Source: Perkinsus olseni (Eukaryota > Perkinsozoa > Perkinsida > Perkinsidae). From it: a stretch of 19,738 nt of DNA. Where the stretch lies: positions 1-19,738 of the forward strand of contig JABANP010000747.1 of assembly GCA_013115135.1 (NCBI GenBank), read 5' to 3'. The position numbers were made by a program, and so were the translations under genes. The notes under the pieces are model-generated. The model was not told the origin of the DNA. It ran no database searches and was given only the letters and a program-made list of their open reading frames with translations. Below, piece after piece: positions 52 through 18,732 of this stretch. Numbering within the stretch: the first letter of the stretch is position 1; each line of letters opens with the position of its first letter.

Positions 52-73
52 CTCCCACCGTGGGAGTCCCACG
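52..73. repeat. 22-bp inverted-triplication scar, W = CTCCCACG
   Basis: Positions 52-58 are bases 1-7 of W, 59-66 are the reverse complement of W, and 67-73 are bases 2-8 of W. The match is exact. The inferred empty site is the single 8-mer. The scar at 17849-17870 has a W differing only in its first base. Confidence 0.85.
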
Positions 74-88
74 CTGGTTCAAACCAAT

Positions 89-103
89 GCGATACGGTAT
101 CGC
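89..103. repeat. 15-bp odd palindrome, possible decayed scar
   Basis: Arms of 7 bp flank a single central base, as in half of a 22-bp scar. If W is GCGATACC, the expected third part matches only 5 of 7 bases. A CCAAT direct repeat (84-88 and 103-107) brackets it, which is an alternative explanation. Confidence 0.35.
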
Positions 104-377
104 CAATAACCATCTGGTCTTCTGGCATGAGAACCTCACGCCCATTGTAGAACTATCCTTGGCCTTCTGGTACTGTTACAGGTGGGAGCATGAATAGCAA
201 AAACCCGTCCAGCTACCGACAATTGAGAACCGTCAATTGAATCAGAATACTGTCAACCGAATTCAGAAAGGACATCGTTGATGAATCTCACGTGAATTAA
301 CAGAGCCGGGCGGGAGGAATGTGGACTTTAGGTATACCAATCCGCTCGCGGATGGAAAGATCGTGAAAAAACATGTC

Positions 378-399
378 ATGGACGTCGCCCATTGGGCGA
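378..399. repeat. 22-bp scar, W = ATGGGCGA (one mismatch)
   Basis: The middle part (385-392) and last part (393-399) are exact. The first part (378-384) differs from bases 1-7 of W at the fifth base (A for G), consistent with a later point mutation. Confidence 0.7.
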
Positions 400-531
400 A
401 GCGTATAAGTGTGTTCGAAGTACTCCGGTGAGCAAGCCTTTCGCATCATTCACGAATCGATTATCGATAACCATCTTTTCCTGCCCTGCATCTTCGTTCT
501 CTTCTTTTCCGTCCGCATAATATGGAATTTC

Positions 532-607
532 TGCTCAGCGAGGAGTCCTCACTTACTGATGGTTCAGACAGAGTGAGGCTCACTCTCGCAGGCCTCCTCG
601 CAGAGCA
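532..607. repeat. Large imperfect hairpin containing an expanded scar (547-585)
   Basis: Outer 14-bp arms (532-545 and 594-607) pair with one mismatch. Inside, CCTCACT (547-553) is followed by 17 bp of filler, then GAGTGAGG (571-578), then CTCACTC (579-585). That is the three-part scar for W = CCTCACTC with extra sequence between parts one and two. The complemented eighth base expected after part one is not present. Confidence 0.5.
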
Positions 608-611
608 ATTT

Positions 612-641
612 GACGACCATAGTTGAAGAACTATGTTCGTC
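612..641. repeat. Hairpin, 12-bp arms with one mismatch, GAAG loop
   Basis: GACGA plus CATAGTT (612-624, one unpaired position) pairs with AACTATG plus TCGTC (629-641). No third copy follows, so it is not a scar of the 52-73 type. Confidence 0.7.
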
Positions 642-701
642 GCTTTCTCGTCACTTCAGTCATCTTCAGAGAGCGCATGACCCCGAATCCACTCGCGTAT
701 C

Positions 702-750
702 TGGTCGATGCCATAAGAGGCTGGACTCTGGCGTTTTATGGCATCGACCA
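702..750. repeat. Hairpin with perfect 15-bp arms and a 19-nt loop
   Basis: The left arm (702-716) and right arm (736-750) are perfect reverse complements. Nothing in the flanks suggests a target duplication. Confidence 0.8.
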
Positions 751-1986
751 CCGCTGCTCCTATGAAGACCATCGATTCGATCACTACTCATCAGACTTTG
801 AGAGAAAAGGGCTGCCAGTCTGAGAGTTACAGAGGTCCTACGGGATATGAGGCACCCGAGCGACTACCAATCCGGCTGATGATCTTGGCTGGGATGGAGA
901 AAGTTACTGTTCCGAGGTGGTTCGAATGGCGAAACGCCGTGGGTCTGAGTTCTTGCATCGCTTGAGCAACGATCCGGTAACTCGTCATCCGGCCGCAGGC
1001 TACTGCGTAGTACCAACCACTCTGACGTCGGTGTCAATGCTTTCTGATGCTTTCTCTTGCGGAGGACCTTCAATATCCATGCGGTTAGTGTGTTACTCGG
1101 ATTACACACTCGCCGTGCATGGCCTTCGCTCATTCTTAAGCGCAGTGCCCGACTCACCTGACGTTTGTTTTCCCTCAGACGTCGTCATTTACTTGGGACG
1201 CTTCTTACACTCGAATCCGCTTGAGATGATTCCTAGGCGAATCCCCGTTGACGTCGATATCGGCGTCCAACTTACTCCGAACACGGCGCCTTGCCGAGCT
1301 GCCAGCATTTCCACTCCTCGTTAGTAAGGGCCTGCAAGTTGCATGCTACAACACTCTTTCAGCCCACGGCATCTAATCCCCATGCTGATGCCGATTTGTT
1401 CGCCGACCATGACAGGACTCCTACCGCGAGATCTATCAGGACTGTGATGAAAGAAATGTTGCATGATGGAATGATGGAACTTCCATCCCGGATGTTCTAG
1501 CCTGGTCCTTCACGGTTGTCGCTCCTCTGCTGTATTTCATAGCAATGCAAGATGAGATGGAAATATGAGTGTATTTTTCTCGGCTAGCTTCAACGAGGGT
1601 GCGGTTAGGGCTAGATACTACACCCCATAGAAAGGCTTCCTTGCTCGGAGTTCAATCTGCTTTCCATTATTATGCTGACGACCGCTCCGCACGCATGGTG
1701 AAGGCGGCTTGTGCACTATAACTCAGTACAGTGTGGCTTTTTGAGACGGGGCTCAAAGAGTGGTAGAATTGGACTAGGCGGGAGCTATGCAATAATGTGA
1801 TTTACAGCTTACTGAGCTAAGCTAAGCTTACTGTAGCACGTATACTCATGCACGCGGGTGAAAGGCGCACAGTGAGGTCAGACGGTTATCTGATACTAAT
1901 TGTATGCTGTCGCAGTAAAAGTAAGTGCAGCGATGGAAGTTTTACAGCTGAGAAGTATTCAACCAGGCTGCAGCCGTTGCATGGCG

Positions 1987-2023
1987 TACACTATAGGCGT
2001 CACTATGTTGTCACTATAGTGTA
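1987..2023. repeat. Hairpin with 10-bp arms; short direct repeats in the loop
   Basis: TACACTATAG (1987-1996) pairs with CTATAGTGTA (2014-2023). The loop and right arm carry two further partial copies of TCACTAT. Confidence 0.6.
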
Positions 2024-2335
2024 GAAGAAACAGCGCAGCAGCTTGAAAGCGATAAACCGATGAATTGAGTGAACCTGATCTCAGCCGCTAACTGCGGCCA
2101 GGCCGTTACACAATATGGTCTCGTAAGTTGTCTGGAGACGGTTGCATTGGGAAAATGTTTGAAAATGGTAACGTCAGGGGCACGGCAACTTTGCCGCTCT
2201 CCCGAGAAGTGCCCGCGACGCTTGCTCGCTCGTTACGGTTATCCGGGGGAGTTCCTTTTCGGTCGAATTAAAGACACCATTCTACAAGTATTTAGGGCAA
2301 CCAAACAGTCGAGCATTCTGAAGCTCTCCTACCCC

Positions 2336-2395
2336 GCACCATAACTACTAGCAGACTGCTAGTAGTTATGGTGCCAGTCTGCTAGTAGCAGACTG
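2336..2395. repeat. Two adjacent palindromes (39 bp and 21 bp): expanded scar
   Basis: 2336-2374 is a perfect odd palindrome centred on 2355, and 2375-2395 is a perfect odd palindrome centred on 2385. The left half ends in CTAGCAG (2348-2354). The right half begins with the complement of C followed by TAGCAGA (2385-2392). These are the borders expected for W = CTAGCAGA with long inverted tracts between them (19 bp of left flank, 10 bp of right flank). One mismatch: the base at 2355 is A where the complement of the eighth base (T) was expected. Confidence 0.6.
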
Positions 2396-2793
2396 AAACA
2401 CTGTGTCCCTCGTCCGGTCAGGCCGACACCGACTTCCGTGGGGCAGTTGTCCCCTCATGGACGTGGGAGTCAGCCTTCTGCGACAGAGGCGAACTTCCAG
2501 CTTCGCATGATACCGTGACTCCTCCGCTGAAATTCTAGTAAGTCGCGTGTCTCGAGGACGGAGTAGTCCTGGCAGCACATCAAAATGAATTAGTAACGAT
2601 CTTCACTTTCCAGCACCTTGTACGTGCCGAGGTGCATGCGTGCCTATCATACCGCGACGCGCAGTCGAGCTTACGCGGAGGTTCCTCCCGGGAGTTTTCA
2701 GTCTACGCTGTACTTCATTATTAGTGGGAGGCTCCCACTGGGAGCCCATGGCTCTCTCAGCCGGATCGGGCCTCAGGCGTTCACTCTGCAAAC
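2396..2793. other. Non-coding stretch upstream of P450-like copy 1
   Basis: No supported gene. It contains the scar at 2724-2745. Similarity to the second P450-like copy starts only about 15 bp upstream of the ATG (the GCGTT motif before each start). Confidence 0.5.
2724..2745. repeat. 22-bp scar, W = GTGGGAGC
   Basis: Exact: 2724-2730, 2731-2738 and 2739-2745 follow the three-part rule. Confidence 0.85.
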
Positions 2794-3199
2794 ATGCTCC
2801 CACTAGCCGACGTCCTTCCCGGCCTCTTCAATAAGGTTGGATCATTGGTGCGCTCCCGCCCCTCGCCCCGTCTCCTGGCATCGGGGATGGCAGCAGTGGC
2901 TGCTGTGTACCTCCACCGGGCCATCACACGACGTAAACAGCGACCATCACTCTGTAACAGACTCGGCGGGACTCCCGGGGTGAGCGTAGCACTCAGGGAG
3001 GATGGCTGTATCTCCCACTTGAAGTGGTTAAAACCGACTAACCACTGCCATGCTCGCTCCCTCATGAGTTCATCCCATTCACCACTTCCCTCAGCCCATT
3101 CCTTATTTCAGATTCGTCCCGAGGTCCTCTGAGCACTTCGTCTATGGCCTCGAGATCTTGGTCGATAAGTATGGTGATGCTTACGCGATTGCGAAACTT
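2794..3199 (+). pseudogene. P450-like gene 5' end, copy 1 (two exons, truncated)
   Basis: Exon 1 (2794-2979, 62 codons) encodes a short N-terminus, a hydrophobic segment around residues 27-40 and a basic stretch (RRKQR, about 46-50). This looks like an endoplasmic-reticulum signal anchor. The exon ends in a GGTPG motif at a strong donor (GGG, then GTGAGC). A 115-bp intron runs to TCAG at 3091-3094. Exon 2 then reads PIPYF...PRSSEHF and ends near DKYGDAYA. The proline-rich hinge after a membrane anchor followed by 'KYGD' resembles the start of microsomal cytochrome P450s; this family call is an inference from short motifs. Exon sequence, splice sites and an intron hairpin are shared with the copy at 19364, so both derive from one gene. 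Similarity cannot be followed past about 3190, where a hairpin (3200-3231) begins and no haem-binding region follows. Copy 1 is therefore a fragment. Confidence 0.5.
3023..3046 (+). other. Conserved intron hairpin (8-bp stem, 8-nt loop)
   Basis: AGTGGTTA (3023-3030) pairs with TAACCACT (3039-3046). The second P450-like copy has AGTGGTCA and TGACCACT at 19577-19584 and 19593-19600. A C-G pair in one copy is a T-A pair in the other, so pairing is preserved. Confidence 0.6.
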
Positions 3200-3231
3200 A
3201 CGCAAAACTGCGAGGCCAGGCAGTTTTGCGT
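3200..3231. repeat. Hairpin with perfect 12-bp arms, 8-nt loop
   Basis: 3200-3211 pairs with 3220-3231. It lies where similarity to a functional P450-like gene appears to stop. Confidence 0.75.
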
Positions 3232-3534
3232 GCAAGGCCCCACGCATACAGCATGGCTACCAGGGAACCAACCATCGTCACGACACTGCGTTGGCTGAAA
3301 TATCATTTCTCAATGTAGCATGACGTCACGGCTATGACTTGGTTGTCCTGTCGTCAGTCGCTGGCAGCGAGTAGATACTGTGGTGCAGGAAGTTAGTGCT
3401 TCAGAGTAAGAAATTCCCGAGAGGTTTTCTTGAGCGAGAGGTGAAGTTGCTCCGCGAATGTCCATGCGGGTCAGGCTCGAGAGGAATGGAGGTCCGGAAA
3501 GATAAGTAAAGATGAAAGCAGGGATCCTCTGGAG
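3232..3534. other. Non-coding stretch, nothing recognised
   Basis: No supported gene or RNA. Only small hairpins are visible, such as the 13-bp palindrome around 3359-3371. Confidence 0.5.
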
Positions 3535-3556
3535 ATCCCTCGGAGGGATTCCCTCC
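3535..3556. repeat. 22-bp scar, W = ATCCCTCC
   Basis: Exact: 3535-3541, 3542-3549 and 3550-3556. A further hairpin (GGGATC with GATCCC) abuts it on the left. Confidence 0.85.
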
Positions 3557-3630
3557 GGGGACCACTTACGGTACCTTAGATAATGCCCGTAAGGAGGCTT
3601 GCAAAAAAGCCTTTTGTTTAGAACCCTCAC

Positions 3631-3737
3631 TCGAGGAGCGCTTCATTCAATGAAGCGCTCCTCGATTACCTTATATTAATACGAACGACGTGCGTATTAA
3701 TGCCGGCAATGAAGTTCATTGCCTTACTAATATAAGG
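3631..3737. repeat. Multi-hairpin structure: expanded scar, W = CTTCATTG
   Basis: 3631-3665 is a perfect 35-bp odd palindrome whose left arm ends in CTTCATT with C (complement of the eighth base) at its centre, 3648. 3705-3723 is a 19-bp odd palindrome with G (complement of the first base) at its centre, 3714, followed by TTCATTG. Both borders specify the same 8-mer. Between them lie inverted copies of the flanks: an outer stem pairs 3669-3678 with 3728-3737, and an extra hairpin (3675-3683 with 3693-3701) sits inside it. Confidence 0.65.
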
Positions 3738-3786
3738 AGCCTTTTAGCACCTTACCTTACCCTTCCGACCAAAGTCGCCGAAAGAT

Positions 3787-3840
3787 ATAAGAACGACGTG
3801 CGAGAAAACTGTGAGTTACCTTGCGGTTTTCGCTTCTTAT
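3787..3840. repeat. Hairpin sharing a 12-bp motif with the structure at 3631-3737
   Basis: ATAAGAA (3787-3793) pairs with TTCTTAT (3834-3840), and GCGA-AAAC (3800-3809, one bulged base) pairs with GTTTTCGC (3826-3833). GAACGACGTGCG at 3791-3802 also occurs at 3683-3694. Confidence 0.6.
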
Positions 3841-4402: not shown

Positions 4403-4424
4403 CTCGCACTGTGCGAGTCGCACA
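4403..4424. repeat. 22-bp scar, W = CTCGCACA
   Basis: Exact: 4403-4409, 4410-4417 and 4418-4424. Confidence 0.85.
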
Positions 4425-5662: not shown

Positions 5663-5878
5663 TGTTATGGAGCGCTGTCGATTGGCACGGTTGTCGCTGC
5701 CGACTGGCGCGGTGATCGATTTGATGATGATCGATTTCAGCTATCAGCACGTGTGCGCATATTCCCCCTCGTGAGGCCTTTATCAGTTCCGTTGCATACT
5801 GATATTATTGACTGGCGGCACCTCGGTGTTGCGCAGCGCAACTTGCGCTAGTACGGGACACTCGCACGAGTCATAGCA
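5663..5878 (+). repeat. Element A 5' LTR (216 bp, with scar)
   Basis: Runs from TGTTATGG to CATAGCA. It is 14 bp longer than the 3' LTR, entirely because of the scar at 5828-5849. The final A also forms the first base of the gag ATG. Confidence 0.92.
5828..5849. repeat. 22-bp scar in 5' LTR, W = GTTGCGCT
   Basis: Exact. The 3' LTR has the single 8-mer at 18381-18388. LTRs are identical at insertion, so the 14-bp difference arose afterwards. This is the best direct empty-site control in the window. Confidence 0.95.
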
Positions 5879-7077
5879 TGGTGCCCAGACCCAGGAACGG
5901 TGCTTCCTCCGTTAGTTCTGGCTCTTCTCGTGCCCGTATGAGTGTCTCTTCGGGTCCCTCTGAATTTGCTGAGCCCCCGAGTTGGGAAGATGAGACCGAG
6001 GAGTATGTTCTTGCCCTAGGCGGCTACGATCAAGACGAGGGCCGATCCCCTGGTCCTGCTGAGCAACACCAGGGCTCCTCATCCAGTTCTGCTGAGCAAC
6101 AGCAAACCGCCCAGGTAGCCGCTACTTCGGGAGCTGGGGACCGTCAGCCATCCCCCTCCCCAGCGTTGGGCAGCCATTCCCATCCCCCTCAAGGGCAGGG
6201 GCTAGATGAGGCCGCTGATCACGCTCATCGTACAGTCAAGTCCTACGACCTCGGCGAGAAGTTCACCGGCACCGATAAGCAGGCAAACAGCTTAGAGGTG
6301 TATGAGTTCATCTCTCGAGTTAAGGCGCATTTGAAACTGCTTAACATTCCCCCATGTAATCATTATCAGTATTTGTTATTGAATACCCGATTAGCTGCCT
6401 ATAATACTTTGACCAATAACGTTCGTCTGCCGATAAATGATCCACAAGCTTTTGAGAAGGGCATTCTGGTCCTCCAAGAGCGATTCGGTGTGGGTCGCCA
6501 CGACCTGTGGGCATTAGCCCGCACCCGTCGTCTGAATGTCGGTGAAACCACATCCGACCTCATGGGTGATCTTCAAAAGTATCTCTCGTATAGTCTGCCC
6601 GAGGTCCTGAACATTTCTCGCCAGTGCCTTGATTGGGTCGTCGTCATGTCGTTCTGGCACTCTCTCCCTTTATCGTTGCCAGGCCTTGACAATCTGCGCA
6701 CGACTTGGCTATCCCAGGTTCGCGAAGGAGCTCCGTTAGTTGAGACCGCTTTGAATCTCACTCGCTCCGTTCGCGTTGAGGGCCAAGAGGGAGTTGCTCT
6801 TGTTCAGAGTCCGAATTATTACTCTCGCCCCTCAGGCAAGGGGAAGCATAAGGGGAAGGGATATCCGCCGCGAGGTGCCGGAAAATCACCGCCTGTTCAT
6901 CGGAGTATATCCCGCTCATCTCCTTCTCAAGTTCCCCGTTGCTTTAATTGCAACGGACGGGGACATATCAGTCGCAATTGTCCCTCCCCCCCCAAGGTAT
7001 TGATAGGGGAGTGGAGCTGGCTGCCCGATTATGCCGTCCATAATCACCTGATCCTGTCTTGTAGGTTCAACTGTTGA
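5878..7077 (+). CDS. Element A Gag (3' end disrupted by a scar)
   Basis: Structural nucleocapsid/capsid protein of the retrotransposon, 399 codons as it stands. The N-terminal ~110 residues are rich in Ser, Pro, Glu and Gln and probably disordered. The middle (about 125-310) is a capsid-like helical region. A basic Gly/Lys-rich linker leads to a CCHC zinc knuckle at residues 355-368 (C-x2-C-x4-H-x4-C), which in the family binds genomic RNA. The ATG at 5878 straddles the LTR end and the primer-binding site. The last few codons and the stop are an artefact of the 14-bp scar at 7065-7086; without it the frame would run directly into the protease, giving a gag-pro fusion frame. Confidence 0.85.
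   Translation: MVPRPRNGASSVSSGSSRARMSVSSGPSEFAEPPSWEDETEEYVLALGGYDQDEGRSPGPAEQHQGSSSSSAEQQQTAQVAATSGAGDRQPSPSPALGSHSHPPQGQGLDEAADHAHRTVKSYDLGEKFTGTDKQANSLEVYEFISRVKAHLKLLNIPPCNHYQYLLLNTRLAAYNTLTNNVRLPINDPQAFEKGILVLQERFGVGRHDLWALARTRRLNVGETTSDLMGDLQKYLSYSLPEVLNISRQCLDWVVVMSFWHSLPLSLPGLDNLRTTWLSQVREGAPLVETALNLTRSVRVEGQEGVALVQSPNYYSRPSGKGKHKGKGYPPRGAGKSPPVHRSISRSSPSQVPRCFNCNGRGHISRNCPSPPKVLIGEWSWLPDYAVHNHLILSCRFNC
5879..5896 (+). promoter_or_regulatory. Element A primer-binding site
   Basis: TGGTGCCCAGACCCAGGA directly follows the LTR. It begins with TGG, the complement of the CCA end of a tRNA. Which tRNA serves as primer cannot be told from the window. Confidence 0.6.
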
Positions 7078-7086
7078 ACTTCAACA
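7065..7086. repeat. 22-bp scar at gag/protease junction, W = GTTCAACA
   Basis: Exact: 7065-7071, 7072-7079 and 7080-7086. The net 14 bp shifts the frame from gag (ending at 7077) to the protease frame; subtracting it joins the two. Confidence 0.93.
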
Positions 7087-7289
7087 GCCCAGATCAGAGT
7101 GAGACCTTTACGGCACTCATTGACTCCGGTTCAACAGTCACAGTCATTTCACAGTCAGCCTGTGAGAGACTCTTTGGACGTTCCCTACCCTGCGATGATG
7201 AGCCCTTTCATGTGACAACGCTCTCTGGTAGGATCGCACTCCACGGTGGAGTCTCCACCGGACGGTGACATCTCACTGTCTCCTGGGAG
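7087..7289 (+). pseudogene. Element A protease, N-terminal part (interrupted)
   Basis: Retropepsin-like aspartic protease that would process the polyprotein. The catalytic motif DSGS sits at about 7122-7133 in ALIDSGSTVTVIS. The frame stops at 7266-7268 because of the scar at 7238-7259. If that scar's 14 bp is discounted, the reading frame stays open to 7289, where element B begins. The C-terminal half of the protease resumes at 13169. No start codon of its own is expected, as it was fused to gag. Confidence 0.85.
7238..7259. repeat. 22-bp scar in protease, W = ACTCCACC
   Basis: Exact: 7238-7244, 7245-7252 and 7253-7259. It creates the premature TGA at 7266. Confidence 0.93.
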
Positions 7290-7509
7290 TGTTGAGGGTC
7301 GTTATTCCTTCCTTATCTCCCATTGGGGAAACGCTACACTGAAGGACTTATAGAGAGACTTAACTTATCAATATCATTAGCAATGAACTCCACCGACGCT
7401 AGGCTAAGATACGCGCTGCGACACAACGTGGAGACACAGTAGTGGAGGAGACGCCATACACTGAAACGACACAATTACTTGATCATTAGATAGTCGTCAT
7501 CCATCTACA
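7290..7509 (-). repeat. Element B 3' LTR (220 bp)
   Basis: Identical by eye to 12946-13165. On the coding strand it runs TGTAGATGG to CTCAACA. The integrase ORF ends inside it, with its stop at 7497-7499. Confidence 0.92.
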
Positions 7510-8654
7510 CGCCCCCCTCGCACAGAACCTGCGCGAAACTTCTTCCTTCTAGGCAATCGGGACAACTTCGGTGGACTAGCCTCGTCACAGAACTCCCACT
7601 GCTCATCATCCAAGGTGAGCCACTCCGGTTCAGTGCCATCATCCCAGGTAACCAAACAACGATGACCGGGCTCATCATGGGACGTCACCGTCTCGTCACG
7701 ACGAATAGTTCCAGTATAGAGATCGCTATCGCCGTTGACGTCAGTGATGTTGACGGATATACGAGCCCCCACACGACTTGGACCAATAAAATCTCCGACC
7801 AGCCTACCAGTCTCTTCAAAGGGGCACAAGTTGTGAATAGACTCGACCTGCTTACGACCACCTGGAAGAAGTACGAGTACACGATTGCCGGTCAAGATGG
7901 CATCGACGAAGCCAAGACTACTGCCTAAATCCGCCTTTCTCAATCGCTGACGGATCACAGCCACAGGCTCGCCCACATATGGACGCCAGCGTCGCTGCTT
8001 GCCGATGCCGAGAGTCTCCAATACGTGAGTTCGTAAGGACCGCCAATGAGTCTCAAGGTAATACTTACGGAAGGCCAAGGCGTCCTTAGCAGGGAAACAC
8101 TTAATAGGGAACCCAGCTACTCGAAGAGGTCCGACTTGTTTCTCATAACCGAATGCCAACAAGTCCGGTGTAACCGGCCTGGTCTTCGCCTCGATCTCAA
8201 TGAGACGTCCCAGGGGCCGAGAGTTGAGAACGAACGACAAGTAGTCCAACAGAAGGCCAAAGTCACCATCATCTTCTGGTATACGGCCACGGACATGACG
8301 TAAGGCCTTTCTCAAGACAGTAAGGAAGACCCCATGCAAACGATTTGACCTGCCGGCTTCCCATGGAGCCGATGAAGCCAGCGTGTGCACACTGGTTCCC
8401 AACGCTTCCTTCATATCCCGATGGAACGCCTGCGACGAAAAATACGACGCATTATCGACGTACAAGTGACGGACTCCTCCTCGCTGCAGCTGTACTCGAC
8501 GAAGGCATTGCAGGATAGACCTAGAATCTTCCTTATCGAGAGGTAACAGAGTACAGTGCCCAGTGCCACGACAGACCACAACCACAACCTTCCTTTTTTC
8601 ACCGAGATGAACCACATCAACGTCTACACTCCAGTAAGGGGGTTGATGGAGCAT
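7497..8654 (-). CDS. Element B integrase core with C-terminal Tudor-like domain
   Basis: 385 codons. The DDE integrase core begins at once: D in WSVDVDVVHLG, D in LYVDNASYF, and an acidic residue in PWEAGRSNRLHG as the likely third catalytic residue. The HHCC zinc domain that normally precedes the core is absent both here and at the end of ORF1. Residues about 296-355 resemble a Tudor-type fold: Y-TGTI, then a CLVTWDDG...EWLTL...W pattern, followed by a basic tail. By analogy with integrase chromodomains it may direct insertion to modified chromatin; this is inference. The frame is -1 relative to ORF1, whose stop lies 18 bp upstream, and is open across the junction. Expression could use a -1 frameshift, but no canonical slippery heptamer is obvious. 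The last codons are encoded by the polypurine tract and the LTR. Confidence 0.8.
   Translation of the reverse strand: MLHQPPYWSVDVDVVHLGEKRKVVVVVCRGTGHCTLLPLDKEDSRSILQCLRRVQLQRGGVRHLYVDNASYFSSQAFHRDMKEALGTSVHTLASSAPWEAGRSNRLHGVFLTVLRKALRHVRGRIPEDDGDFGLLLDYLSFVLNSRPLGRLIEIEAKTRPVTPDLLAFGYEKQVGPLRVAGFPIKCFPAKDALAFRKYYLETHWRSLRTHVLETLGIGKQRRWRPYVGEPVAVIRQRLRKADLGSSLGFVDAILTGNRVLVLLPGGRKQVESIHNLCPFEETGRLVGDFIGPSRVGARISVNITDVNGDSDLYTGTIRRDETVTSHDEPGHRCLVTWDDGTEPEWLTLDDEQWEFCDEASPPKLSRLPRRKKFRAGSVRGGRVDG
7510..7519 (-). promoter_or_regulatory. Element B polypurine tract
   Basis: GAGGGGGGCG on the coding strand lies immediately before the 3' LTR, the usual site for plus-strand priming. Confidence 0.7.
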
Positions 8655-8671
8655 AGCAGTCTCATCTTTCT

Positions 8672-11600
8672 CTAACCGAGGGGAAACTGTCGCAGTGGTT
8701 CTCCAATCGGACTGCCGAGATTGAAATAGATGATGCCATCTTGCTCGCTGATACCACCACCTCCTTCTACTAGCCGTTTCCGTTGGTCATCTGGAATGAG
8801 GCTCTGAGCACTGCGGACCAAAGTAAACAACTCATCACGAGGTGAATCATCAGGAGAAGTAGGATGCTGCACTGCAACAACATATGACGTCATCTCCTCA
8901 ACTGGCACGTCTGGTGATGGCATACCACCAGCATCAGATCGAAGAAGAACTTGAGAGAGCGTATCCTTGGTTCCATCGGGAAGCTCGCATTGCCGTTCAA
9001 AGAGTCGTGACAAACCGTCGGCGACCCGGTTCTCCTCACCCTTCAAATAGGTAACCGAAATGGTGGACCCGGGAACTGTCCTTCGGATAGCTGCGCACTC
9101 ATCCGCACACGCGCCTAACAGACGACTGATGGCACGCCTCTCAAGGGACTTACTCTTGGGGGCTGTGGGCAGACCAGCGGTGGTAGCAGAAGACCATGAG
9201 ACCGTAGCTCGGTTATCGCAGAAAATGCGAATATCATAGGAGGCCTTAGACTTTCGACACAAAGAAGAAGTAGCCGACACAACATCACCGATGGACTGTA
9301 AACACCGAAGTAGGGCACACAACTCTCTTCGATTGCTATGCCACGCCACTTGATTGGCGCGCCATCGCCAACAATCTTCTCTCAGCGTAACGGTTACGGC
9401 TGGCCCACCTCGCTTTGCGGCGTCATTCACATAGTCTATGATGTAGCCACCCCCCGAGAGGCTAGCGTCGGATGCGGCCTGCAATAGGAGAACAGAACCG
9501 TTTTCTGGTAACGGAAGGCCTGCCCGGTGAGCACAAGGGACCGCATCATCTCTCCTCTCAATAACCCATCTCAACAGAGGTAACATGGCCGGGTGAGTCG
9601 CTATAGAGGCCAACGCATCCCAGGATGAGAGATGTGGAGAGCTCTTCCCGGCGACACTTCTTAGAGCGTCGGCAAGGGCTCGGTCGACAGAATGTTGAAG
9701 TAGTGGATCCACCCCAAGCAACCCAGCTAACCCGAAGACTTCTCGACGGCTGAAGGAACCTGATTTTAGTATCTCATCGGCCTTAACGGCAGCTTGATTG
9801 AGACGATTAAGACGCTCACATACCAACACCAGAGAACCACCAGAGAAATGAAGATTAACACCAAGGTACTTCCCGGTTTCTTCCACAGAACACGTCACTC
9901 CTCGATCAGAGAGTGCCGTCTGTAGTTCTTCTCGGCGTTCAGGGGTTGACAGAGCAGAGAACTTGCGGTGGGGAGTATGCTGACCACCGGCTTCTAGAGT
10001 GTTGAGCCAAAGGGAAAGGTCACGGACCGGAACCTTCACGGTTTTATCCGCGAACATATAATCATCAACCACCAGCTCGAAGAGGTCGCTCCCAAAGTGA
10101 CATGCCAACTCCTCCTCGCTAGCACAGAGAGAAGAGGCGAGTCCAGCCGGACCCACGTTCACACCGAACGTGAGCCTGTTACTCACGAAAATATCGCTGC
10201 CAGCATACAGCAACATCTGAGAACCATGAACTCTCACATGATAAAATGCTGCCGTCGCATCCCCTACCAATAAGATGGCAGGAGAGGCGATCATCAGCCG
10301 AACAAATATGGCCGCCGTAGACGGGACAAAACTGGAGGCGTCAGGCAATAACATATTAGCTGATCTAAAATCACAGACTAACCGGCCTTTACGTCCACCA
10401 GGAGTCCCCTCACCGCCCAGCAGAAACACATTCGCTTTGAACGGAGAGTCGACGATACCCTTATCAACTTTAGTCCACCATTGGCGTTGGACATATTCCT
10501 CTACGAGGCTATCGAAGATGCGCTTGCGCTCTGGACTCAACCGGTTGCGAAGCGCCTCCGAGTACTCACGCACAACAGAATCTCCTGAAGGCAGTGGAAA
10601 CTTGAGTTCGCACGTCACAGATTGCCGTGGGATATCGATGATCTCAACGGGACAAAGAGGGCGAAAACGAAACTCAAACTTCGGAGCGTAAGGAACAGGA
10701 CGCCAATCAAACATACACAGGCGATTCAACGCCGCAGTAACAATGGTCTTCTCCTCGGGAGTGGGCGTTACCGAGAGAGAGTCAGCACCGGACATAGTAG
10801 GCGGGGGAACGAGAGGAATTACACCAGTCTTGGGGTCCACATCGCCAACAACATACACGCCAGACGAATCCGGGAAATGATCTTCCAGCGTAGCTTCTGA
10901 TGGCACAGAAACCACAACATTAAGTCGATTTAAAGCCTCGCGACCGAGCAGCACACGGAAGGGACCATAACCATCCCGACGGACAGTACCAGAACCCTCG
11001 GAGGGAAGGATATTGAAAGACACTGGAACTTCTAGTTGGCCACCACGAAGACAGATCTTTCCAAGAATCTCTTTCCCCACATCGACGAGAGTACCGTCTG
11101 CTAACTCGACGACGGACACATCCACCTTTTCACTGGGGTTGCACGGGAATTCATAACCAAGCCAATACGAAAGTCCTGCACCAGTATCCACAACAGCATC
11201 GATTTGATACCACTCATCGGGACTAGAGTCAGGAGAGAATTTGGCCTTCAACACGATCTCAGGAGGAATAATAGCGCCGTCGGTGACCGCATATGCGACA
11301 ACATCGCGACTCGCTACTACCTGGGTGTCCTTACCAGCCTGGCCCTGTGCGGGCCGAAAACTTTCACCGGTGGACGATTGACGGCCACGGTACGGTCGGA
11401 CAAAGAACTGGCCATTGAAAGAATTCCCATCGGGCATAGAAGTCTCCTTACGGAAGCCGAAAATACAGTACGGCTTACCCCTGCGGTTTTTACCGCAGTA
11501 GACCACATCAGCTTTAGTCAAAGCTTTAACCTTGTCACGGTTCTTGGAGTCGGCACCAGCACCATAAAAGACAGAAACACAGGACCTCTCAATGTTCTCA

Positions 11601-12946
11601 ATCTCCTGGATACGGGCAACCTTGGAAGGCGACGAAGCAGGGCGACCTTGAAGAATAGGATCCTTACCAAGCATCTCAGAGTCTTCGAACGACCGACATG
11701 CTGACCTGATAGCTTCAGAAACACTCGGGCCCGAGGAAGAGAAGAGAGGAAGGAGAGATTCCCAATCTTGGTGAACATCATCCTCAAGATGCCATAACCC
11801 TCCAGACATAGCTTGATGACAACTACGTATACGATCGACAGTATGCTTCCGCAAATTAATAGGGAGCTTACCGACGATTAAACGAGTCATCAATTTCAGC
11901 TCACTACGATCGGAAGGATATACCTCACCATACAGAACGTAGATACCCTTAACCTTCCGCAGAAAGGAATCACAAGAGCGAGTACCTTCAAATCGCAACT
12001 GCGCTAGCCGTCGCTGATACTCTTCCTTCAAGGGTAACCGAGAGCAAAACTGCTTAGTCAGAGAGTCGACAAGTGGCTGCCAACTATAAGCGTTATCACC
12101 AACCTCCTCAAGGGCAGCTTCCTTGACCTCCTTCTCCTCGAGCGTCGCCAAGAAGGCGATAGTAATGGTGCACTCGAGAGACTTCACCGGGACAAATCGT
12201 TCCTCGCCATGACTGCTCATGTGTACGCCTCCTCCTGCCTCAACCAGTAGGCGACCGAAGGCACCAACGTGAGCTTTGAGCTTGAACCGATCAGTGAGCT
12301 TGGGAAAACGGATCTTACCAACAGCTTCTGCAGTCAGACTGGGCCTCTTCAAGGCCTGCCTACCGGCGTAATACGCCAGAGGAGGTTCCGGCGCATAAGA
12401 ATAACGACGGTAATCGGGTCCACGACTACGAGATGACGGCACCGAAGGAGAAGATGATGATGATGGAGACGAAGACGACGGCGAACCGCCGGAAACAACA
12501 ACCGGAGCTAGCTCTTTCTCTCGATCACCTTGAGGGCCCACGGTACCAGATGGCAAAGCGGCCAAAGCAGCAGCCGTCAACATCGGTACAGCAGGTAGAC
12601 CACTAGTTTTCCCTTTACTACCCCGAGAACTGGCCTTGTCCTTATTGGAGCCTCCTTGAGATCGAACCGATAAGCATTCCGCGAGGTCGGCCTCCACCTT
12701 AGCCAAGTCTCCTTCGATCACCAACAAGTTTTCTTCGTGCTCCTTCTCTCGTCGTTCTAGCTCCAGTACAGTAGGGTCCTTGGCGTTGTCCGGAACGGCT
12801 AGGATCTTTTTGATATCATCCTTGACAGCTTCCAACTGAGAACGCAGGCGACCTTGCTGACGACGAAGCCCCGTCCTTTTAGCGCGCAATTCCTCACAAC
12901 GAGCAAATAAGGGATTAGGAGTAGCAGACCCATCGTGGAGCGCCAT
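8672..12946 (-). CDS. Element B Gag-protease-RT-RNase H polyprotein
   Basis: A single long ORF (1435 codons counted from an upstream ATG at 12979, inside the LTR). I take the ATG at 12946 as the start because it straddles the LTR/PBS junction as in element A. By residue number from 12979: a coiled-coil-like charged region (about 25-105), a Ser/Pro linker (about 150-190), a capsid-like region (about 215-430), retropepsin with DTGA at 598-601 and LLGRE at 677-681, reverse transcriptase with catalytic D907 and VVDD at 970-973, and RNase H with D1171, E1219, D1255 and D1321. No CCHC zinc knuckle was found in Gag. All catalytic residues looked for are present. It ends at 8672 just after RNase H, with no zinc-binding integrase N-terminus. 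Confidence 0.9.
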   Translation of the reverse strand: MALHDGSATPNPLFARCEELRAKRTGLRRQQGRLRSQLEAVKDDIKKILAVPDNAKDPTVLELERREKEHEENLLVIEGDLAKVEADLAECLSVRSQGGSNKDKASSRGSKGKTSGLPAVPMLTAAALAALPSGTVGPQGDREKELAPVVVSGGSPSSSSPSSSSSPSVPSSRSRGPDYRRYSYAPEPPLAYYAGRQALKRPSLTAEAVGKIRFPKLTDRFKLKAHVGAFGRLLVEAGGGVHMSSHGEERFVPVKSLECTITIAFLATLEEKEVKEAALEEVGDNAYSWQPLVDSLTKQFCSRLPLKEEYQRRLAQLRFEGTRSCDSFLRKVKGIYVLYGEVYPSDRSELKLMTRLIVGKLPINLRKHTVDRIRSCHQAMSGGLWHLEDDVHQDWESLLPLFSSSGPSVSEAIRSACRSFEDSEMLGKDPILQGRPASSPSKVARIQEIENIERSCVSVFYGAGADSKNRDKVKALTKADVVYCGKNRRGKPYCIFGFRKETSMPDGNSFNGQFFVRPYRGRQSSTGESFRPAQGQAGKDTQVVASRDVVAYAVTDGAIIPPEIVLKAKFSPDSSPDEWYQIDAVVDTGAGLSYWLGYEFPCNPSEKVDVSVVELADGTLVDVGKEILGKICLRGGQLEVPVSFNILPSEGSGTVRRDGYGPFRVLLGREALNRLNVVVSVPSEATLEDHFPDSSGVYVVGDVDPKTGVIPLVPPPTMSGADSLSVTPTPEEKTIVTAALNRLCMFDWRPVPYAPKFEFRFRPLCPVEIIDIPRQSVTCELKFPLPSGDSVVREYSEALRNRLSPERKRIFDSLVEEYVQRQWWTKVDKGIVDSPFKANVFLLGGEGTPGGRKGRLVCDFRSANMLLPDASSFVPSTAAIFVRLMIASPAILLVGDATAAFYHVRVHGSQMLLYAGSDIFVSNRLTFGVNVGPAGLASSLCASEEELACHFGSDLFELVVDDYMFADKTVKVPVRDLSLWLNTLEAGGQHTPHRKFSALSTPERREELQTALSDRGVTCSVEETGKYLGVNLHFSGGSLVLVCERLNRLNQAAVKADEILKSGSFSRREVFGLAGLLGVDPLLQHSVDRALADALRSVAGKSSPHLSSWDALASIATHPAMLPLLRWVIERRDDAVPCAHRAGLPLPENGSVLLLQAASDASLSGGGYIIDYVNDAAKRGGPAVTVTLREDCWRWRANQVAWHSNRRELCALLRCLQSIGDVVSATSSLCRKSKASYDIRIFCDNRATVSWSSATTAGLPTAPKSKSLERRAISRLLGACADECAAIRRTVPGSTISVTYLKGEENRVADGLSRLFERQCELPDGTKDTLSQVLLRSDAGGMPSPDVPVEEMTSYVVAVQHPTSPDDSPRDELFTLVRSAQSLIPDDQRKRLVEGGGGISEQDGIIYFNLGSPIGEPLRQFPLG
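12928..12945 (-). promoter_or_regulatory. Element B primer-binding site
   Basis: On the coding strand, TGGCGCTCCACGATGGGT directly follows the 5' LTR. It differs from element A's PBS, so a different tRNA primer is implied. Confidence 0.6.
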
Positions 12947-13165
12947 GTTGAGGGTCGTTATTCCTTCCTTATCTCCCATTGGGGAAACGCTACACTGAAG
13001 GACTTATAGAGAGACTTAACTTATCAATATCATTAGCAATGAACTCCACCGACGCTAGGCTAAGATACGCGCTGCGACACAACGTGGAGACACAGTAGTG
13101 GAGGAGACGCCATACACTGAAACGACACAATTACTTGATCATTAGATAGTCGTCATCCATCTACA
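12946..13165 (-). repeat. Element B 5' LTR (220 bp)
   Basis: Identical by eye to 7290-7509. The coding-strand end CA plus the PBS TGG forms the ATGG start. Confidence 0.92.
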
Positions 13166-13168
13166 GAG

Positions 13169-13961
13169 TCCGTGTGCGGATCTTGATCTCTCGGAGAGAT
13201 TCTCTCCCGTGTCCCCCCTGTTGCGTCTGCAGTCACGCGACATTGATGTCATGTTGGGCATGGACTGGCTCCACGATCTCGGGGCAACCGTTACTTTGCA
13301 TCCGGGCACTGAGCCACCATGGACCATTTCCCCTCTCGGTCGCCCCTCGGATCCTTCCGTCGGCCTTGCCTTGAGCACGCTCAGTTGTGAAACCACTATA
13401 GATGAACCGGATTTCATCCTGCGACGCCGGTCCGATTCTGGACCATCCCGCTTCTATTGGGAAGTGGAATGGAAATGGCTGTCAGGAAAGGAACCGTCCT
13501 TCCCCATCCTGAAGCCTCCGTCATTCCCGGAAAGCGTCGCACGGCTCACTCCACAACAGAAAGAGATTTTCTATGACCAACTCCGTATGTGGGTCCGTAA
13601 TGGGTTTCTACTCCCTACCCACCCGTCCCAGTTGAAAGGCGTGCTCACCTGCTTTCCACACGTCAGTATGGATAAACATACCAAAGTGCGACCAGTCTTG
13701 AACTATGTCTGGTTGAATGACCTATTGATCAGTTGTCCGCACTCAAAGGGTCCACCGACAACTTGCCTGGGTGAACTGCGTTCATGGCGTACCTGCAACC
13801 CGCATGATTGGTTCATTATAGATGTAACCACCGCGTATCTTAAACTTCGGGTTGCTCCTCACCAGCAATATTGGCAAGGTATAATCATCCCCGATTGGCC
13901 TGAGCCCAACACCTTCCGATTATCAAGGGTCGGGTTTAGCCTACACATTGCTGGTAAGGCT
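13169..13961 (+). pseudogene. Element A protease C-terminus and RT N-terminus
   Basis: Continues the protease from 7289. The scar at 13186-13207 shifts the frame, after which VMLGMDWL (the conserved retropepsin C-terminal motif) appears near 13248-13271. A linker leads into reverse transcriptase: a KVRPVLNY block and the first catalytic aspartate in FIIDVTTAYLKL (near 13813-13848). The frame ends at 13970 because of the scar at 13955-13976. Confidence 0.85.
13186..13207. repeat. 22-bp scar in protease, W = ATCTCTCC
   Basis: Exact: 13186-13192, 13193-13200 and 13201-13207. Together with the 7238 scar and the element B insertion, discounting it gives one open protease frame from DSGS to LGMDWL. 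Confidence 0.93.
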
Positions 13962-13976
13962 GAGCCTTGAAGGCTC
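13955..13976. repeat. 22-bp scar in RT, W = CAAGGCTC (one mismatch)
   Basis: Parts two (13962-13969) and three (13970-13976) are exact. The first base of part one is T instead of C. The change is silent in the inferred pre-scar codon. Removing 14 bp rejoins the two RT frames. Confidence 0.88.
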
Positions 13977-14991: not shown

Positions 14992-15780
14992 TCTTCGTGA
15001 TTGGCTCCAACAATTTCCCAACCGGGACGGGAAAGTCCTCCTACCGCCTCACCTCATTGGGGAATTTCTGTCGAGAGTACACGATCACGAAGGGCATGCT
15101 GCAATGCTGTCCCAATGCCGGGAATACATTGAGGCACCGGGCCTTGCGTCGGCCATTGAGTCTTTCCATTGCGAAGCATGTTCCAGAGGGAAGGCTTTTC
15201 CGGGAGACCGTCAACCGTTCACTTCTCCCCGGCACCTCCACCGAGCCCCGTTCCCTTTTGTTCGCATTCATTCTGATATTGCAGGTCCCTACTTGCGATC
15301 CGTGGACGGCACTACTCGCTTTTACCTCACTTCTGTCATCGACAGTTGTTCGAACTTCCTGTTAGTGCGTCATACTCAACATCCGCCGAATTCTCAAGAT
15401 GTCTGCTCACTACTCACGTCCCTCGTGCATACCTTCCACGTTGTCCCCCTGATGCTCCACTCGGACAACGGAACCCAGTATTCGAGCATGGCTATGGCCG
15501 ATCTTATCGAGTCATGGGACGCTATTCATCTCTTCACTCCCCGAGGATCTTCGCCATCCAACGGGAGGGTCGAGAGAGTTCATAGGTACTTGAACGAGTA
15601 TCTCCGTACCCATCATGATGGCAAGGGCATGTCCTACACCACCTTCTGTGATCTTATCCATCATGCAGTCTATTCATGGAATGTCACCAAGCGTGGGAAC
15701 ATCAGCCCACATTCGTCGGTCTACTCCTTTCCGGCCTCTATGGGTATGCATGTACGAAGGCAGTGTCGTCCGGGCCATGA
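14917..15780 (+). pseudogene. Element A integrase, zinc and catalytic domains
   Basis: An HHCC zinc motif (HDHEGH...CEAC) is followed by the DDE core: D in RIHSDIAGPY, D in LHSDNGTQY and E in SSPSNGRVERVHRYL. It lies in a different frame from RNase H; the shift falls somewhere around 14900-14960, and no scar is visible there. The C-terminus leaves frame at the scar 15774-15795. Confidence 0.85.
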
Positions 15781-15795
15781 GTCATGGCCCATGAC
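15774..15795. repeat. 22-bp scar in integrase, W = GCCATGAC
   Basis: Exact: 15774-15780, 15781-15788 and 15789-15795. Removing 14 bp brings the integrase core and its C-terminal tail into one frame. Confidence 0.93.
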
Positions 15796-15979
15796 TACGT
15801 TGACTCGTGTGTTGTTGATCCACCTCCCGAGCAGGTCATCCCAACAGGCACGCGAGTGTTGGTTCGCTGTCCGTCCCCGTTGGCTAAGCTAAATTTCCGG
15901 TGGTACACAGCGATCATTATTCGCCAGGTAAGTGCCAATGTGTTCATCACCAAGGCCGACGTATCTGGTCATGAAGTGA
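15796..15979 (+). pseudogene. Element A integrase C-terminal tail (interrupted by LINE)
   Basis: Encodes a GTRVLVR...FRWYTAII segment typical of the small beta-barrel C-terminal domain of Ty3-like integrases. The frame runs by chance straight into the LINE. The remaining codons lie after it, from 18121 to the TAG at 18171-18173. Confidence 0.75.
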
Positions 15980-15981
15980 AG

Positions 15982-18053
15982 CGAGCAGTGCAGAAGGATC
16001 GTGCAGTGATAGCGGTATTTCTAGACGCCACATCGGCATACGATTATGTCAGGCATGATGTGTTACTAGCAAGATTGGGATCTTTCTTCATGCCCCCCCA
16101 TATGTGGCGGTGGATCCGGAACTTTATCAATAACCGTATCGTTCATACATTGTGGGGTCAGACGCGGTCCCGCTCTAGAATTATGCGTCGAGGTGTACCT
16201 CAGGGTTGTTCGATGAGCCCTATTCTGTGGTTGGCATACATGTCACCTCTCATCTCATATCTTTGGGACGGAATCGTCGACGATGTTTCTTTTCGTACCT
16301 TTTGCTTGGCAGATGATGTTTGTATAACAATGTCTGTTAGAGTGAAAGATCTGGATTGTAAGCTCTACTTGTTACAGCAACAATTAGATGGTGCTAATGA
16401 TTTCTTCTCCTCATCGTCAATAAAACTGAACGCAACAAAATCTGCCCTGGTTGTTTTTTCGACGAACTATAATGTTCGAAAGAAGGCCATTAAGCTGTGT
16501 ATTGCGGGCGAAGAAGTTCCGAGGAGTTCGAATCAGCGTATGCTGGGATTGTATGTAGATGAGGGACTAACTTATGCTAAAAGCTGTGACATGTGGAGGA
16601 GTAGAGTGTTTGCTCGTATCCGTATAGTTAATCATGTGAGTAGCCGATCTTGGGGCACTAGTTTTAGAAGTACTCGACAAGTGGCTGATCAGCTTATCAT
16701 GTCCAGCGCTCTCTATGCTATTCCCGGGTTTTATGGGGCGGTCAGCTCTAAACGGAATTCTCACAGGCTACTCACTGCTTATAATTCTATTATGAGGGCT
16801 GTGTCTGGGTGCCTATTAGCTACTGATGTAGAGAAGTTACCTACAATAGTAGGATGGGAAAAGTTGGTTACCCGTGTACAACGTCGTGCAGCGCACCTAG
16901 CGCATATGGCACTCAGACATCCACAGCTTACTCCAGCACAGACATCAATTTTGGGTGGAACGGTGAAGAAGAAGAGGAAAAAATTACTTGGATGGAGAGA
17001 ATTATCGGCCGAGTTCTTACCACAAGCCTTCTATCCTCTTATATCTCCCTTACCACACAGGCTCGCACCTTGGCTCTCCCTTCCGATCATCTTCAGCGCT
17101 TCATCTTGTAACAAACGAGATGATAGTTCGGTCAGAAAGGCGGCCATAGTGAGTGCCTTGTGTACTTCTCGTGAGCGGGTGCATTCTAAACCGTTGTGGG
17201 AAATATGGTTCGATGGCTCTGTGGACTCTAGTATTGGCCATGGTGGTGCTGGTGGTGCGATTTGGTTCGGAGATGAAGCAGAACCACGTTGGTCAGCGTC
17301 TGTTCCTGCGGGTATGGTTGCCTCATCTTATACTGCTGAGATACGTGGGTTAGCATGTTGTATGGAGTCTTTCGAAGGGTTCATCTCTTCGCACATAGTT
17401 GAGCCTAATCATACGGTTTTAATTGTATGTGACTCATTTTCCTTATTCTGTGCTTTGAAAGGTGATCCCTATAGTATGTCCGCCGATCTCATTACTGCAT
17501 GGGAATCCCTATATAGACTATCTTCGTATGTCACCTCCTGTGAACTTTTGTGGATTAGTTCACATTGTGATATATCTCGTAATGATTTTGTTGACTCTCT
17601 AGCTCAAGAGGGGACTAAGATGGATCAATCTTCGTGCTTACTACCTGTGTCTGCGGTTAAATCCTATATTAATAGAGATAGAGTACGAACTCCGATCCTC
17701 AAATTGCCAGAGGACATATCGGTGCTTGAGCTCGATAAACCAGTATCATTGAGATATATTCAATCTACTTGTAACCAGATTTACGCAGGCAAGTGGTCTG
17801 AGTGCTTTGATTATTTGTTTAAAATAGGTAGAGTCGAATCCCCTCTATGTCCCACCGTGGGACTCCCACGTGTAAACGATCGAATGTAGACGTAGTTGAC
17901 GATATTGAGCATAGGCTGTTCAAATGCCCTAGATTGGAGGAGATCAGATTACGCTGTTTTGGTGCTTCTCCGTCTGAGGGAGAAATATGCGAGTTTGTCG
18001 GTTTAAATACCATTAATGTCGCGCGGTTCGTAGCTTTGGCGAAAGATGCTTGA
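15982..18053 (+). pseudogene. LINE ORF2 fragment: RT, RNase H, C-terminal zinc motif
   Basis: RT motif A is in AVFLDATSAYD, motif B in RRGVPQGCSMSPILW and motif C in FCLADDVCI. RNase H follows from about 17205: IWFDGSVDS, YTAEIRGLACC, VLIVCDSF and SRNDFVDSLAQ. An RNase H after RT points to the I/Ingi/LOA group of LINEs. The frame ends early at 17889 because of the scar at 17849-17870. Past it the original frame continues (17871-18053) with EHRLFKCP. Discounting the scar's 14 bp gives a C-x2-C-x12-H-x4-C zinc motif, the usual LINE C-terminus, and a natural stop at 18051-18053. Apart from the scar, the frame is intact. Confidence 0.88.
17849..17870. repeat. 22-bp scar in LINE zinc motif, W = GTCCCACG
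   Basis: Exact: 17849-17855, 17856-17863 and 17864-17870. It splits the first two zinc-ligand cysteines. Confidence 0.93.
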
Positions 18054-18120
18054 TCATTGTATCTTTCATCTTTCCCTCGCCTGTTCTGTAGAATGGGCTT
18101 GGACCGTAAAAAAAAAGTGA

Positions 18121-18173
18121 GCACGCACAGTCGCAATATCAAGCTTCTTCTGTCTGACGGTGGTCATGATTAG
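18121..18173 (+). pseudogene. Last codons of element A pol
   Basis: After the second AAGTGA, the integrase tail frame stays open to TAG at 18171-18173, 42 bp before the 3' LTR. Confidence 0.7.
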
Positions 18174-18202
18174 TCTCATTTCCTCTCTGCAATAATCACC
18201 TC

Positions 18203-18213
18203 AAGGAGGAGGG
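18203..18213 (+). promoter_or_regulatory. Element A polypurine tract
   Basis: AAGGAGGAGGG, two bases before the 3' LTR. Confidence 0.8.
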
Positions 18214-18215
18214 CA

Positions 18216-18417
18216 TGTTATGGAGCGCTGTCGATTGGCGCGGTTGTCGCTGCCGACTGGCGCGGTGATCGATTTGATGATGATCGATTTCAGCTATCAG
18301 CACGTGTGCGCATATTCCCCCTCGTGAGGCCTTTATCAGTTCCGTTGCATACTGATATTATTGACTGGCGGCACCTCGGTGTTGCGCTAGTACGGGACAC
18401 TCGCACGAGCCATAGCA
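18216..18417 (+). repeat. Element A 3' LTR (202 bp, scar-free)
   Basis: Runs TGTTATGG to CATAGCA. It retains the empty 8-mer GTTGCGCT at 18381-18388. Confidence 0.93.
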
Positions 18418-18452
18418 TACTCCGATCGCGTTAGGGCAAACTTCTCTCAATG

Positions 18453-18467
18453 GACTATCGGATAGTC
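18453..18467. repeat. 15-bp odd palindrome, probable decayed older scar
   Basis: GACTATC, G, GATAGTC. The expected third part ACTATCC would coincide with ACTA-CC if the younger overlapping scar at 18465 is discounted and one base is lost. This suggests one scar formed within another. Confidence 0.45.
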
Positions 18468-18486
18468 ACTAGTAGTGACTCACTAC
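18465..18486. repeat. 22-bp scar, W = GTCACTAC
   Basis: Exact: 18465-18471, 18472-18479 and 18480-18486. Confidence 0.88.
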
Positions 18487-18617
18487 CTCGCATTTCAACC
18501 TCAGCGATTTCCCCACACATGGACTTTGAACGACTCTTGTCCTACTGAGAGCGATTCAACTCTCACTCAGTAGCCACGGGCACCCAAAATTGTCATCGGT
18601 AACTCATATGGGTCTTC

Positions 18618-18732
18618 CCAACGGCGTAGGTACCACCATTGAGTATGACCGTCATACTCAATGGTGGTACGGTTGGTACCACAGTGGTACTACCACTACG
18701 CCGTTGGTGCATCATGACGTCATACTATGACG
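18618..18732. repeat. Expanded scar with 41-bp palindrome, W = GTATGACG
   Basis: 18630-18670 is a perfect odd palindrome whose left arm ends GTATGAC with C (complement of the eighth base) at 18650. At 18718-18732, CGTCATA, C, TATGACG gives the right border for the same 8-mer. Between them the inverted copy of the left flank continues: 18618-18629 pairs with 18696-18707 across an 11-bp discrepancy. A compact scar (18676-18697) lies inside. Confidence 0.6.
18676..18697. repeat. 22-bp scar, W = GTACCACT
   Basis: Exact: 18676-18682, 18683-18690 and 18691-18697. It is nested within the larger inverted structure 18618-18732 and so is younger. Confidence 0.88.

Follow-up and report, generated by a model that had tools for sequence, protein, structure and literature searches.

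What process could have written the same 22-base arrangement into fourteen places of one stretch of protist DNA while using different letters at each? The question is raised by contig JABANP010000747.1 of the mollusc parasite Perkinsus olseni, positions 1 to 19,738 of which (hereafter, the window) were analysed within the 61.5-Mb, 968-contig assembly. Each of these scars follows a single rule: the first seven bases of an 8-mer, W, are followed by the reverse complement of W and then by bases two through eight of W, i.e., W(1-7), rc(W), W(2-8), where W may be any 8-mer. The evidence set out below indicates that, quite probably, a hAT-family transposon once inserted at the 8-base W of each scar, duplicating this target in the process, and left the scar as its footprint on later excision.

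An earlier note on this DNA had placed fourteen such sites under one strict rule, and all fourteen coordinates proved right, with twelve sites matching exactly and two (378 and 13955) carrying one mismatch. Three more places in the window (89, 2378, and 5161) fit the rule with two mismatches; the one at 5161 is unchanged in a homologous copy, L095, and was excluded from the scar count. Within the window, W lengths of 6, 7, and 9 to 15 yielded zero exact matches, and lengths of 4 and 5 yielded 10 and 1, respectively. For density counts, twenty 10-kb stretches of the same genome were added to the window (219,738 bases in total), and here length 8 gave 49 exact and 35 one-mismatch scars, and exact matches at other lengths numbered two (length 7), two (length 6), five (length 5), and zero (lengths 9 to 13). 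The excess is therefore sharp at length 8. When this sequence was randomised three times (first order), the resulting copies contained no scar at zero or one mismatch and three at two mismatches. The 20 stretches alone (200 kb) carried 37, 33, and 32 scars with zero, one, and two mismatches, respectively, and five of them had none at zero or one mismatch; 19 of the 20 are contig starts, and their density may overstate that of the whole genome. Across all 61.5 Mb, the pattern for the subset W = GTYNNRAC was found at 90 places, versus 13 for the reversed pattern, with exact scars making up 37 of the 50 places listed from those 90. Rough extrapolation puts the number of exact scars genome-wide at about 11,000 from the sample, or about 5,000 from the GTYNNRAC count and base frequencies.

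Homologous copies that lack a scar carry a plain 8-mer in its place, sometimes with one base changed, and are 14 bases shorter. The earlier note had predicted both the plain 8-mer and the addition of 14 bases, and wherever a comparison could be made this was so, with 22 clean cases and no clean case against: ten from sampled loci, window 5828 among them; six from a set of three homologous copies; four further ones from the window; and the private scars of L052 and L094. Clean copies are available for five of the fourteen window sites, all of them exact scars and, like the other window scars and footprints, assigned to no strand. At 4403..4424 (W = CTCGCACA), all four copies are without the 14 bases and have CTCGCAGA instead; the repeat shared there stops 9 to 14 bases beyond the plain 8-mer CTCGCAGA, and the gap, which the aligner left unplaced, is revealed as a 14-base difference by ungapped comparison with the empty site. 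The scar at 5828..5849 (W = GTTGCGCT) lies in the left long terminal repeat (LTR) of an element whose right LTR retains the plain 8-mer GTTGCGCT at 18381..18388 on the plus strand, and it is likewise missing from nine further LTR copies (ten of ten without the scar). Both copies of 15774..15795 (W = GCCATGAC) lack the 14 bases, with L093 retaining an identical 8-mer and L094 a diverged one; both copies of 17849..17870 (W = GTCCCACG) also lack them, with the 8-mer being identical in L083 and one base different in L082. Finally, nine of nine copies of 18465..18486 (W = GTCACTAC) show a plain 8-mer, either GTCACTAC or GTCACTAT. The exact scar at 2724..2745 (W = GTGGGAGC) is ambiguous, its diverged copy L081 being without about 15 bases, and that at 18676 sits inside a larger insertion described below. 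The remaining seven window scars had no compared copy: 52..73 (W = CTCCCACG), 3535..3556 (W = ATCCCTCC), 7065..7086 (W = GTTCAACA), 7238..7259 (W = ACTCCACC), and 13186..13207 (W = ATCTCTCC), all exact, together with 378..399 (W = ATGGGCGA) and 13955..13976 (W = CAAGGCTC), each with one mismatch. A search with window positions 13100-14100 found no copy spanning the two scars there.

The sampled loci tell the same story. Among 34 alignments across scars, 16 had the same scar in both sequences (four of these being the window itself) and 12 had a clean 14-base gap (10 scars); the other six (L016_551, L018_8421, L024_1968, L028_99, L036_442 versus L025, and window_17849 versus L032) were set aside for low identity or another gap pattern. 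A second scan of these loci for gaps returned eleven 14-base gaps at nine distinct places, every one of them a scar, and two more gaps of other sizes (7 and 22 bases) near scar-like sequence. In addition, three homologous copies with 96.7 to 97.3% identity differ from one another by six scars, and their pairwise comparison gives 6, 4, and 2 gaps of 14 bases beside 6, 3, and 5 gaps of one base. Two of these scars are shared by C468 and C521, three occur in single copies, and one further scar is common to C250 and C521, carrying two mismatches in the latter; such mixed sharing suggests, from the sequences compared, that exchange has taken place between copies. The segments themselves (L011:1000-7600, L074, and L075, at the starts of C250, C468, and C521, respectively) are 97% identical, and begin about 1 kb from the contig start, which would suit subtelomeric repeats.

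Taken together, these comparisons uphold two further claims of the earlier note. The scars are a mutational signature rather than a sequence family, as W differs among sites and copies carry the matching plain 8-mer; and the process is stereotyped. It has also been long-running, as judged from scars at zero, one, and two mismatches and from presence/absence differences between 97%-identical copies. Scars build up with time, and the youngest element of the window is free of them. This is an LTR retrotransposon at 7290..13165 on the minus strand, nested in scarred sequence and bounded by two identical 220-bp LTRs; it contains zero scars even at three mismatches, where the density around it would predict about six (Poisson P of about 0.003). 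Its LTRs have TG...CA ends, and it retains an open frame of 1,443 amino acids. Scars can also break genes, since two retroelement reading frames stop inside them, as a +14 insertion would cause: a gag-like frame (5812-7077) ends within the scar at 7065, and another (13146-13970) ends within that at 13955, with the next frame starting from 13964. A separate case of relative timing is a tandem duplication at L015 6502-7482 (spacing of 681 bases), both copies of which carry the same two scars, indicating that the scars predate the duplication.

How might a transposon leave this exact product? Before excision, the donor site would read L-W-element-W-R, with W being the 8-bp target duplication and L and R the flanks. 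The transposase would place a nick in the flank, one base away from the element, and close each broken flank into a hairpin. The left hairpin strand would then be L W(1-7) w8'...w1' L', mirrored by the right hairpin. If the opening of both hairpins fell on the inner border of the target duplication or past it, the resulting 3' tails, rc(W) and W, would be fully complementary and could anneal over eight bases and be ligated. Whatever the W, this would yield L W(1-7) rc(W) W(2-8) R, which exceeds the empty site by 14 bases. Hairpins opened farther out would still have tails complementary over these same eight bases only, and trimming would yield the same product; we propose that this limit on complementarity gives a constant product without any measuring device. 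Where annealing failed, end joining would produce rarer variants with longer palindromes and filler. An algebraic check bears out the construction: two hairpins, a one-base offset, and annealed 8-base tails give the scar for any W. The hairpins, the position of their opening, the annealing, and the residence of an element before each scar are steps that we infer from known hAT chemistry.

Several features of the scars fit such an origin. The length at which the excess is sharp, eight, is that of the hAT duplication; the direct 8-bp target copies flank the joint, with W(1-7) and W(2-8) lying on either side of the insert; and the palindrome centres, w8' and w1', are the complements of the element-adjacent bases and are built into the scar rule on both sides. 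In Hermes, the nick is offset by one base into the flank, and a nick so placed centres the palindrome on the complement of the element-bordering base. The target words also carry a transposase preference. Among 87 exact scars that differ by sequence, W matches the motif nTnnnnAn at 77 of 174 positions (T2 or A7), relative to a background of 24.6% (P = 2e-8), and T2 and A7 occur together in 18 of 87 scars versus 5.3 expected; G1/C8 and Y3/R6 are also favoured. In published work, hAT elements duplicate 8 bp, with Hermes and hobo inserting at nTnnnnAn (PMC10368747, PMC11226609), hAT excision seals the flanking DNA as hairpins (PMC6900584, PMC4763223), and the palindromes of Ds footprints centre on the complement of the element-bordering base (PMC5873905). 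The earlier note knew of no named class of insertion with such a structure, but that view is not supported: hAT excision predicts the scar, and the type of footprint has been described for Ac/Ds (PMC5873905).

The genome also contains hAT elements. The Dimer_Tnp_hAT domain has 21 matches, and three complete hAT elements possess terminal inverted repeats and exact 8-bp duplications, namely C457:982-2845, with GTCTGATG on both sides; C209:23508-24938, with GTCCGGAG as its duplication; and C816:7489-10164, with ends CAGTGGCGGCG and CAGGGGCGGCG and CCTGATTC on both sides. The transposase frame of the last is interrupted. A relative in L027, of which one end was read, is 99.8% identical to it over 1.9 kb in different flanks and has a 668-amino-acid frame without stops that matches PF05699, the hAT C-terminal dimerisation domain, at 31.7 bits (cut-off 21.4). 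A transposase frame matches the P. olseni protein FOZ60_016047 at 96% identity over 75% of the query, and C816 holds a copy of the element concerned. Profile matches to repair genes include one Ku and one SNM1/Artemis-type DRMBL; they are present and decide nothing.

Rarer variants of the kind that failed annealing would leave were sought in 289 kb as rows in which a single 8-base W could supply both hairpin tips, along with filler and a palindrome 7 to 31 bases long. The search gave 27 such rows beside 83 canonical ones, one form thus dominating, and randomised controls gave four in five copies and zero in five more; rows of this type numbered one each at lengths 9 and 10. Among the 27, L012 yields two with one right end, and the row at window position 455, a short self-palindrome, could have arisen by chance. 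A possible variant footprint lies at window positions 3641..3721 (W = CTTCATTG), with both hairpin tips, palindromes of 18 and 10 bases, and filler between them. Another, at 18643..18732 (W = GTATGACG), has a left palindrome of 21 bases and a right one of eight, and copy L096, which lacks an 82-base block there, reads plain GTATGACG. The exact scar at 18676..18697 (W = GTACCACT) is nested within it. Over 18610-18735 as a whole, this scar, the long-palindrome footprint around it, and a further short insertion make up several nested events.

A footprint census covering all joins with zero to eight palindromic bases per side placed 84 cases where the palindromic bases sum to eight, all such joins giving the same scar, and left a few small cells above expectation (11 versus 1.7, 7 versus 1.7, and 5 versus 0). 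Two simpler forms were tried and rejected as marks of the process. W(1-7)W(2-8) was considered as a form specific to length 8 (256 versus 70), but lengths 9 and 10 are also raised (56 versus 18 and 28 versus 6, respectively), and plain WW exceeds expectation at all five lengths between 6 and 10, a pattern that simple tandem repeats would give.

A number of results weigh against excision of a resident hAT element. No site proved to be scarred in one copy and occupied by a hAT element in a second when 40 of 194, 39 of 428, and 11 of 11 candidate places were scored in searches that used L011, the window, and the left flank of one hAT element, respectively, as queries, and occupied sites are far rarer than scars. 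Sampled loci held five exact 8-bp duplications beside 12-bp inverted repeats (two mismatches at most), compared with two at 7 bp and five at 9 bp, and one of them is convincing; a search for non-autonomous elements on this basis was given up, there being no excess over 9 bp. One hAT copy (C129) has unequal flanks, and the 8-mers beside 17 hAT ends show the target motif at 13 of 34 positions, which is a trend only (P = 0.07). The classical footprint of plants, with one complementary base on each side, was seen six times versus 5.7 expected, i.e., with no excess, and repair here thus differs from the described cases. Likewise, Ac/Ds excisions have mixed outcomes in published accounts, unlike the dominance here of the full 8-base inverted copy (83 versus 27 rows). 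Finally, variant-type rows are also in excess at length 6 (22 versus 3 to 7 in randomised sequence) and at length 7 (11 versus 0 to 2). The variant test therefore backs the hairpin model in part only, some of the 27 rows may be ordinary repeat structure, and the excess slightly lowers confidence in hAT excision. As for the scarcity of occupied sites, cut-and-paste movement would keep the number of elements constant while leaving one scar per jump, and a few very mobile elements could suffice.

The rarity of occupied sites beside scars, as well as the finding that gaps of at least 15 bases among the three copies differing by six scars include no insertion with an 8-bp duplication, would also suit a hit-and-run process, in which hAT transposase scars the site while integrating or immediately afterwards, with repair of the 8-base gaps still incomplete, and hardly any element takes up residence. 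A gap filled to seven of its eight bases would have its 3' end at the excision nick and could form the hairpin directly. Length 8 and the target motif would be the same as under excision, and the excess at lengths 6 and 7 slightly raises confidence in this alternative. Nonetheless, the three complete elements with exact 8-bp duplications show that stable insertion occurs, the early step is hypothetical, and we regard the process as unlikely.

Other explanations fare worse against the same data. Template switching during replication, in which the polymerase copies seven bases, switches strands to copy back over the 8-mer, and then returns, would give an inverted copy between direct copies, just as observed, but it leaves unexplained both the length (zero exact matches for 9 to 13 and two each for 6 and 7) and nTnnnnAn; a sharp length of eight combined with a transposase target motif strongly disfavours a random switch, which is very improbable here. 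The evidence comes from an assembly rather than from reads, and assemblers can be misled by palindromes, such that an assembly or sequencing artefact deserves mention. An artefact would hardly produce graded mismatches (37, 33, and 32 at zero, one, and two in 200 kb), scars that are shared or private among homologous copies like inherited changes, a scar-free youngest element, or a target motif in W, and its probability is accordingly slight. A minute self-inserting element of 14 to 22 bp, be it a mobile palindrome or a sequence family, would account for an insert fixed at 14 bases, but it is refuted by the origin of the inserted letters, which derive from the target, as seen in 87 distinct scars and in copies with the matching plain 8-mer; next to no likelihood is left to it. 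Excision of a hAT element, with the flanks sealed as hairpins and rejoined through W, remains the probable source.

Footprints of hAT excision that carry palindromic bases are a known kind. For example, Ac/Ds in plants, budding yeast, and Candida leaves inserted palindromes that have the complement of the element-bordering bases at their centre, a feature shared by the scars described here; in PMC5873905, Ds in Candida gave 28 kinds of footprint among 128 excisions, with a longest palindromic insertion of three, while arms in budding yeast reached up to 20 bases and were at least three bases long in 66 of 140 footprints. The same text ascribes these palindromes to hairpins opened off centre and finds microhomology to be frequent in plants and budding yeast (PMC5873905). 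The fly elements Hermes and hobo share the 8-bp target and nTnnnnAn with the scars, along with the flank hairpin in the case of Hermes (PMC10368747, PMC6900584, and PMC11226609); among the open-licence papers listed, judged by titles and abstract openings, none recorded one footprint form across a genome in a comparable way. In the domesticated hAT transposase Kat1 of Kluyveromyces lactis, both the hAT chemistry and the hairpin-capped breaks recur, and its conserved CXXH motif, needed for hairpins, is also present in the Perkinsus transposase frame (HCFAH, by eye); Kat1, unlike the process proposed here, serves a host function at one locus, whereas the Perkinsus scars are dispersed (PMC4763223). 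The flank-hairpin step is also common to V(D)J recombination (PMC6900584).

In V(D)J coding joints, hairpins opened off centre leave palindromic P nucleotides, and many different joints result, as opposed to nearly one here. Among the open-licence papers listed, judged by titles and abstract openings, none described scars of this form in Perkinsus or the dominance of a single 22-bp product. As far as the searches go, what is new is the near-single outcome and its abundance, in the thousands by extrapolation.

A broader account is possible, although it is offered tentatively and as something less than an even prospect: a few restless hAT elements may have jumped thousands of times while hardly staying anywhere, a dedicated route of hairpin opening and re-annealing through the 8-base copies may seal nearly every exit identically, each scar would give the site, the target word, and the relative age of a jump, and the resulting +14 frameshifts would be a main source of insertions in the lineage. 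If hAT excision is the right explanation, cut-and-paste jumps, which are normally messy or invisible, would here be countable, placeable, and datable one by one, providing a direct record of the rate at which a DNA transposon moves relative to the copies that it keeps. It would also point to unusually uniform repair, in a protist, of hairpin-capped breaks like those that arise in V(D)J recombination.

Some further palindromes and insertions were noted in passing. Long perfect palindromes with one centre base occur at L009:9553-9603 and L028:1270-1316, their arms spanning at least 23 to 25 bases; the former fits a variant footprint. Single palindromes outside scars were rejected as a signal, with arms of at least eight bases being moderately above controls at one centre base but also at most spacers from 0 to 9, and hence unspecific. 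An insertion of about 340 bp in C250, missing from C468 and C521, was considered as a non-autonomous hAT element and set aside, its TG...CA ends and repeated GTAAG suggesting a solo LTR. This probable solo LTR, at L011 5541-5875, has GTAAG as a 5-bp duplication and 96 to 99% identity to copies on C215, C811, and C773.

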